Assembly (NCBI GenBank): GCA_021324825.1
Contig: JAJPII010000033.1
Location: 62,001 to 126,000 of the forward strand
Source of the DNA: Spartobacteria bacterium
GTDB taxonomy: Bacteria; Verrucomicrobiota; Verrucomicrobiia; Chthoniobacterales; Chthoniobacteraceae
DNA: 64,000 bases
Direction: 5' to 3'
A model generated the notes under the pieces. The model made no database searches. It was not told the DNA's origin and was given only the letters and a program-made list of their open reading frames with translations. Both the position numbers and the translations under genes were made by a program. Shown piece by piece: positions 23,087 to 26,102 of this stretch (position 1 is its first letter; every line of letters starts with the position of its first letter).

Positions 23087-23821
23087 TCATTCCTCGACTC
23101 TTTTGCGCTGGGGAAAATCGACCAGCTCGTGTTCGACGGCGTAGCGCATTATCTCCGAGTTGTTCTTCATGCCCGTTTTTTCAAGGATGCGCGTCCGGTA
23201 CGTGCTGATCGTTTTTATGCTCAAAGAAAGTTCGTTGGAAATCTCCTTCACGGTCTTGCCGAATGCAAGCATGCACATGACCTGGTATTCGCGATCCGAC
23301 AGCGTTTCGTGCAGTTGGCGGTCGGAGGAGCCGCGGTGCAGGTGGCCGGCGAGCTTCTCGGCCAGCGAGGCGCGGATGTATTTGCCGCCCGAAAGAATCC
23401 GTTTGACGGCGTCGACCAGTTCGGAGCCGGCGGTTTCCTTCGTCAAATACCCGGAGGCGCCGCGTTGCAGGACGCGGATGGCGAATTGTTCCTCCGAATG
23501 GACGCTGACGATGAGGACGGGAAGCTTCGGCTTGATCTGCTTGAGTTCCTTCAGGCCGTCCAGGCCGCTGCGCCCGGGCATGGTGATGTCCAGCAGCACG
23601 ATGTCCCAATCCTCGGCCCAGACCTGTTCGAGCGCCTGCTGGGTGTCGCTCGCCTCGCGCAGGATGGCGTCGGTGAATTCCTTCGCCAATGTCTGGCGCA
23701 TTCCGACGCGCATCATGGGATGGTCATCCACGATCAGGATCTTCAACGGCCGCGGCGCGGGCGGCGGGGCGGGCGCGGCCTGCGGCGCGGGGACAGGGAT
23801 TTTGACGGTTTTATTGGCCAT
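23087..23821 (-). CDS. NarL/LuxR-family response regulator
   Basis: 244 residues. A Pro/Ala-rich N-terminal lead of about 26 residues precedes the receiver domain (LIVDDHPMM, phospho-acceptor Asp78 in VLLDITMPG, KETAG near the conserved Lys). The C-terminal LuxR helix-turn-helix reads LSDREYQVMCMLAFGKTVKE then LSLSIKTISTYRTRILEKTG. It overlaps the kinase gene upstream by 11 bases, so the two are a cognate pair. Targets are unknown; the divergently placed exopolysaccharide operon at 25.6 kb is the nearest candidate. Confidence 0.92.
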   Translation of the reverse strand: MANKTVKIPVPAPQAAPAPPPAPRPLKILIVDDHPMMRVGMRQTLAKEFTDAILREASDTQQALEQVWAEDWDIVLLDITMPGRSGLDGLKELKQIKPKLPVLIVSVHSEEQFAIRVLQRGASGYLTKETAGSELVDAVKRILSGGKYIRASLAEKLAGHLHRGSSDRQLHETLSDREYQVMCMLAFGKTVKEISNELSLSIKTISTYRTRILEKTGMKNNSEIMRYAVEHELVDFPQRKRVEE

Positions 23822-25352
23822 CAGGGGCGGAGTTCACGATCGGCCACAGGGATTCTTTTTTCGGGAAAGTCTTCAAGGCGTTCAAAGTCTGGCTGCCGTC
23901 CTGGGCGGTGACTTTCGCCACGGGCATCCTTAATGTCACGGTGGTGCCGCCCGCCGGGACGCCTTCGATTTCGATTTCGCCGCCGAACAGGTGCGCCCTT
24001 TCCCGCATTCCGAGCAAACCGAGGGAGGCGGACTGCTCGCCTTCGGTTATGCCCCGTCCGTTGTCCTTTACGACGAGCACGAGCAGGTCCTCCGTCTGGC
24101 GCGTCTGGATGAGGACTTTGCTCGCCTTCGCATGGCGGGCGACGTTGGTCAAAGTCTCCTGGATGATGCGGATAATGGTGTTCGAGAGCATCGGTTCCAC
24201 ATTGCAGGCGCCCTTGAAGCGGACCTCGCAGCGAAGGCCGTAGCGCTTCTGGAATTCGCGCGCCTGCCATTGGATGGCCGCCTCAAGGCCGAATTCATCC
24301 AGGAGCGGCGGCCTCAATTGCGCGCTGATGCGGCGCACGGTCTGGAGCATGGCGTCGATGACGTTCTCCATGGAGGCGAGCCGTTCGGCCACTTCCCGCT
24401 CCGGTTCCCCCTGGGAACGGGTGAAGTGGTTGCGCATGCGGGAGACCTCCATGTTCAGGGCGGTCGTCATCTGGCCAAGTTCGTCGTGGACTTCCCGGGC
24501 GATCGCCGCGCGCTCCTCCTCGCGCACCTGTTGCAGGCGCATGGAGAGCGCCCGCAATTGTTCGCGCGACTGCTCCAGCGCTTCCTGCGATTGCTTGCTG
24601 GCCGACACATCCTGCGCCATGCCGATGATCTGCTCCGGCCTGCCGTCCACCGTCCTGGTGAAGACGGTGTCGCGGCTTTGGATCCAGAGCCATCGCCCGT
24701 TGGCGCCTTTCAGCCGCACGCACGTCTCGAAGATTTCCCCGTCCTCCGCGGTCGCGAGTTTTACCGCCCGCTCCTGGACGATGAATTTGTCATCCGGGTG
24801 CGCCAGGTCGGTTATAAAGACGGGCGCCATGCCGACAAAGTCCTCGACGCTGTACCCGAGCACCTTGTCCACCTGGTGGTTGACGTAGAGGTAACGGCCT
24901 TCGAGCAGATCATAGACGTAGAGAATGGCGGGGGAGGTGTCCGCCACGCGCTGGATGAAGCGCTGGCTCTCCCGCAAGGCGTCTTCGGCCCGTTTGCGCC
25001 GGGTGATGTCGTGCACCGTCCCTTCATAATAAAGGGGCGCGCCTTCCGAATCGCACACGGCGCGGGCCGTCTCCAGGATCCAGATGGTGCTTCCGTCGGG
25101 CCGCCGGACTTAGGATTCGAAGCCGGCGATCTGTTTTTTCTCTTTCATGAGGCGTACAAACTCCTCGCGCCGACCCGGTTCCACGTAAAGCTGATGGCCG
25201 ATGTCCGTAAGCGCCTGCATCAAGTCCTTGGGCGAGGCGTAGCCGTACATCTGGGCCAGCGTATGGTTTGCCAGGAGGTATTGGCCCTCTGGCGTGGTCT
25301 GATAGACGCCCTCCAGGCCATGGTCGAAAAGGCTGCGATAAACGTCATTCAT
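23811..25352 (-). pseudogene. PAS-domain NarL-type sensor histidine kinase interrupted by an in-frame TAA
   Basis: The frame from ATG 25352 runs 80 codons, meets TAA at 25112-25110, and continues in the same frame to 23811. The first part is the first half of a PAS domain (GLEGVYQTTPEGQYLLANHT); immediately after the stop comes VRRPDGSTIWILETARAV and YYEGTVHDITRRKRAED, the second half of the same PAS/PAC unit. A second PAS/PAC, a HisKA_3 dimer domain (REVHDELGQM, His near codon 288) and an HATPase (DNGRGI, LGLLGMRERAHLFGG) follow intact. PAC domains often have Gln at the interrupted site, so one CAA-to-TAA change would explain it. A shorter kinase from an internal start such as 25058 remains possible. 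Confidence 0.85.
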
Positions 25353-25529
25353 CTGGACGTTCGCGGAGGACGCAAAAAAACCCGCTCGACAATCCCTGGG
25401 TGCGTGGAGTATACCGGGTGCACTTACATGGACTTTAGGGAAGAAACATCTTTCAATGCAAGCGTCTTATCAAGGGAGAGTCGTTCATTTGTAGGACAAA
25501 GGCCTACGCTAAATGCGGTCATTTCGTAC

Positions 25530-25560
25530 TTGGCAATCGCGCGATAAAAAGCTTTAGATT
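25530..25560 (+). promoter_or_regulatory. Candidate promoter of the exopolysaccharide operon
   Basis: TTGGCA at 25530-25535 and TAGATT at 25555-25560 with a 19-base spacer, placing the transcription start on the ATG at 25569. The 13-mer TAGATTCAATACT (25555-25567) is nearly the same as that before the gene at 7642. No Shine-Dalgarno seen. Confidence 0.4.
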
Positions 25561-25568
25561 CAATACTT

Positions 25569-26102
25569 ATGAGAACCGTGGCGATCCTTCTTTTAGCTGC
25601 CGTGAACATGGCGCTGCTGGCGACCGTCTCTCTGGAACTTTTGCTTCCGCAGACTTCCGCGCCCGCGATTGCCGCGATGGGGGCGGAGTCGGGCAAGCCC
25701 GATTCTGAAAAAGCCGCTGCTTTGGTCAAGGCCGAGCCCGCCGCCAAGGCGGATGCGCCCATCCTCTACGTAAAGCGCGCCGTGCCAGTCGCTGAGATGG
25801 TTGACCCGCAAACCGGAATGGGCGGAACCGCCGCCGACATATCGGACGCCGCGGACGGCAAAACCGTCGCGGACGGCAAGGATATCGTGGATGCAAAGGA
25901 TGCGAAGGACCTGGCGCCCGTGGCTGAGTTGCTGCCGGGCGAATCGCGCGTTCTCTCGGGCACGCCAGATCCGAATTCCGAATTTGACCCCAACGCCTTG
26001 CAGGGATCCAGCGGTTCCTCATCCGGGCAGTCATCCGGCATTTTGACCCCCGCGCGTGTGATTAACATCGTGCCTCCCACGGTTTCCCAGGAGACACCCT
26101 GA
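25569..26102 (+). CDS. Membrane-anchored or exported protein, first gene of exopolysaccharide operon
   Basis: 177 residues. N-terminal hydrophobic segment (VAILLLAAVNMALLATVSLELLL) acts as a signal anchor or signal peptide. The rest is low-complexity and Ala/Asp/Lys/Pro-rich (DAADGKTVADGKDIVDAKDA; later a Ser/Gly run) and is probably disordered in the periplasm. It ends with VINIVPPTVSQETP. No known domain. Only three bases separate it from the beta-barrel gene, and Wza- and Wzc-like genes follow, so an accessory part in polysaccharide export is likely from position alone. Confidence 0.7.
   Translation: MRTVAILLLAAVNMALLATVSLELLLPQTSAPAIAAMGAESGKPDSEKAAALVKAEPAAKADAPILYVKRAVPVAEMVDPQTGMGGTAADISDAADGKTVADGKDIVDAKDAKDLAPVAELLPGESRVLSGTPDPNSEFDPNALQGSSGSSSGQSSGILTPARVINIVPPTVSQETP

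Follow-up and report, generated by a model that had tools for sequence, protein, structure and literature searches.

A sensor histidine kinase gene on the minus strand of the analysed DNA (a stretch of 64,000 nucleotides, hereafter the window) is interrupted by an in-frame TAA codon within its first PAS domain. This is best explained, with a probability of about 0.7, by a recent nonsense mutation that changed a single base of a normal two-component sensor-kinase gene. The codon was originally probably CAA (Gln) or GAA (Glu) and would have become TAA by one substitution; translation would then end once 80 residues are made, so that the PAS domain would be incomplete and no full-length kinase would form. 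In sequence, both the catalytic half and its partner regulator are intact, so the gene would be freshly inactivated or, at most, some shortened kinase would arise through weak internal initiation. The features concerned are the following.

23811..25352 (-): interrupted sensor histidine kinase gene, PAS1-PAS2-HisKA_3-HATPase_c, 513 codons with one internal TAA (reading frame and Pfam)
25110..25352 (-): upstream piece of 80 aa, N-terminal part of PAS1 (PF13188), with the final strands of the PAS fold missing (Pfam and a low-confidence model)
25110..25112 (-): in-frame TAA (codon 81), Gln or Glu in relatives, within a predicted strand at residues 76-83 (low-confidence model)
23811..25058 (-): longest possible restarted product, from GTG 25058, 415 aa, with the end of PAS1, PAS2, HisKA_3 and HATPase_c
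23087..23821 (-): partner response regulator, receiver (PF00072) and LuxR-type GerE (PF00196) domains (Pfam)

The minus-strand frame 25352-23811 comprises 514 codons including the end stop, and the TAA at 25112-25110 is its codon 81. No other stop precedes the terminal one across 513 codons, where about 15 are expected at random at this base composition (probability of at most one stop, about 5e-6); the alternative frames over the kinase stretch contain up to 17 stops. The frame displays neither a second internal stop nor a frameshift, and its G+C at third positions is 0.74 before the TAA and 0.83 after it. Since an antisense frame is nearly open as well, the domain matches are stronger evidence for the kinase frame than its openness.

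Pfam detects a PAS domain (PF13188) in the 80-aa piece upstream of the TAA, and PAS_3, HisKA_3 and HATPase_c in the piece downstream. When the translation is read through the TAA, PAS_3 matches a second stretch and PAS_9 matches residues 15-117, across the stop. The earlier note had placed a nonsense codon at 25112-25110 inside the first PAS domain of a sensor kinase, with the frame conserved on both sides; all of this is borne out by the single internal stop, by the PAS_9 match and by a PAS1 recognisable on either side of the TAA. The structure of the read-through PAS1, predicted without an alignment, is poor (mean pLDDT 52.7) and is used solely to locate the stop within a predicted strand. 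In the catalytic half, HisKA_3 (PF07730) scores 49.9 bits (cut-off 24), with the conserved His present in the motif EVHDELGQ, and HATPase_c (PF02518) scores 52.4 bits (cut-off 26.4). With these two domains and an adjacent LuxR-type response regulator, the protein is a HisKA_3 sensor histidine kinase. The system resembles the NarL/UhpB-type two-component systems by its HisKA_3 and HATPase_c kinase and its adjacent, overlapping receiver and GerE regulator, but differs from them by the PAS sensor part and the internal stop; its scores against the named families MctS, UhpB and NarX are far under their cut-offs.

The kinase frame ends at 23811, past the regulator's ATG at 23821, so that the two genes overlap. 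An overlap is also found in three orthologous pairs, where the regulator starts 3 bases (L158, L161) or 13 bases (L163) before the end of the kinase stop. This recurrent gene overlap suggests a coupled translation of kinase and regulator, in which case the early kinase stop could also lower the regulator. The best kinase match and the best regulator match lie side by side in seven genomes (G075, G017, G022, G031, G019, G142 and G135), and the kinases of the orthologous pairs in other genera are uninterrupted. G022 (L135) and G031 (L160) retain PAS1 without interruption, and their codon at the stop position is GAG or GAA. The N-terminal parts vary among the orthologous pairs and PAS1 is undetectable in some of them. 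Across the loci L158-L163 and L135, the kinase core and the regulator are kept as a pair between genera of the order, and the N-terminal sensor parts differ. Internal stops were also considered as a widespread trait of the kinase family and rejected, the seven stop-flagged matches in other genomes being natural gene ends.

The residue aligned to the stop was compared across 24 related PAS domains, all distinct (25 rows, with L120 duplicating L009; roughly 43-59% identity), which are paralogues within this genome and proteins from other genera. Gln is found in 12 of them, Glu in 11 and Pro in one, and none has a stop; the premature stop thus occupies a position with a sense codon in the homologues. 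The earlier claim that Gln is common here holds, and Glu is about as common. The corresponding codons are CAG, CAA, GAG, GAA and, once, CCG, of which CAA and GAA are each a single substitution away from TAA. A scan of genome contigs revealed no relative above about 50% identity, and records very near this genome may be missing from that set. Among the residues conserved in at least 80% of the relatives, the kinase keeps 28 of 36 upstream of the stop (several of the differences being conservative) and 18 of 19 downstream. The resulting upstream/downstream ratio, 0.87 against 0.96 +/- 0.07 in the relatives, is on the low side without being an outlier. Residues 82-125, directly past the stop, are conserved to the same extent as in the relatives.

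A single lesion, conservation on both sides and the lack of a second stop or frameshift agree with a recent event as well as with an error, and they give no date. The second of these, a sequencing or consensus error hiding a sense codon and an intact kinase, is the strongest of the rival explanations, though we consider it unlikely. It would account for residues 82-125 being as well conserved past the stop as in the relatives and for a gene free of any other lesion, and the assembly is in 47 contigs and 94.55% complete. On the other hand, the difference is a substitution and not an indel, and the rest of the assembly is not generally error-prone: out of 32 PAS_9 matches in the same genome, that of the interrupted kinase alone has an internal stop, and the 43 HATPase_c matches have none. 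No stop-reading anticodon was found among the 40 tRNA genes of this incomplete assembly, and an alternative code or a suppressor tRNA was rejected on this ground. Within the families tested and the assembled part of the genome, the stop counts and the tRNA genes therefore point neither to a changed code nor to an assembly that is poor overall. The nonsense mutation is presumably present in the living population and presumably recent. Of the origins proposed in the earlier note, a recent knock-out by point mutation agrees best with these data, given the single lesion, the conservation on both sides, the absence of clear decay and the uniqueness of the stop among the PAS domains of the genome and the orthologues. 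Phase variation finds no support, since the change is a substitution that leaves the frame undisturbed on either side, and inspection by eye shows no repeat at the codon.

A functional shortened kinase is somewhat less probable than an error. According to this explanation, a downstream restart, for example at GTG 25058, would yield a PAS2-HisKA_3-HATPase_c protein active without PAS1. The kinase core and the regulator are intact, and the varied N-terminal parts of the orthologous pairs, some without detectable PAS1, indicate that the core pairs with different inputs. Restart is also common in bacteria, where messages are polycistronic (PMC5972666), and this counts in its favour. The proposed restart was however given as an ATG at 25058, where the codon is in fact GTG. 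The in-frame starts past the stop include GTG 25058, GTG 25016, TTG 24977 and GTG 24947, but no ATG occurs between the stop and PAS2, the first one (24830) being located inside PAS2. GTG 25058 is preceded by a mere GGAG 12 bases upstream, a weak argument against it, and residues 82-98, which come before this codon, are still conserved. No restart candidate was distinguished by a ribosome-binding sequence, and such sequences are not enriched before the first starts in the window; the scores are uninformative here, as first starts resemble internal control positions and the ORF set includes shadow ORFs. A natural two-protein arrangement, also put forward earlier, is left without support, being absent in the relatives examined and having no restart that stands out; as a family trait it was rejected because the orthologous pairs have uninterrupted kinases.

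It is improbable that the stop was selected, with the PAS1 input severed and a restarted PAS2 kinase still signalling, so that a point mutation would rewire a system beside an exopolysaccharide cluster. Readthrough or suppression giving a full-length kinase is the least credible explanation: the frame and the domain residues are intact on either side of the stop and the conserved residues directly after it would fit readthrough as well as an error, but no stop anticodon occurs among the tRNAs found in this incomplete assembly, no further PAS_9 or HATPase_c domain of the genome is interrupted, and TAA is generally held to be the least leaky stop codon.

The nonsense mutation is most likely an ordinary one that causes loss of function, and the findings give no hint of a special mechanism. 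The gene resembles recently formed bacterial pseudogenes in that its frame, conserved elsewhere, carries just one lesion. In a study on endosymbionts, pseudogene transcripts stayed detectable and few gave detectable protein (PMC13345370); the endosymbionts described there have very many pseudogenes, whereas the present one stands alone among the domains examined. A literature search on kinases with nonsense mutations returned no matching papers. If the stop is real, one two-component system is disabled or lacks one sensing domain, which matters for the annotation of the genome; the interrupted kinase adds no new mechanism.

Concerning the neighbourhood, the divergent side of the kinase carries the gene of a 177-aa protein (25569-26102, +; no Pfam match), the first of an exopolysaccharide cluster, followed by genes of a beta-barrel protein, a Poly_export protein and a Wzz/GNVR/AAA_31 protein (Pfam). 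The Poly_export and Wzz/GNVR/AAA_31 genes confirm that the kinase is divergent from exopolysaccharide genes, as had been noted. A gene of the sugar-nucleotide 4,6-dehydratase type is situated beyond the regulator. None of the stretches read around the orthologous kinase-regulator pairs, some being short, was found to contain the window's exopolysaccharide genes, so a regulatory link between the kinase and the cluster is a guess based on position. A promoter scan found no promoter.

On the opposite strand, the open frame 23991-25547 (+), of 518 aa, exceeds either kinase piece in length. It was rejected as a real gene for want of a Pfam match and is probably a shadow of the high-G+C codon use, which might nevertheless be picked by an automatic gene caller.
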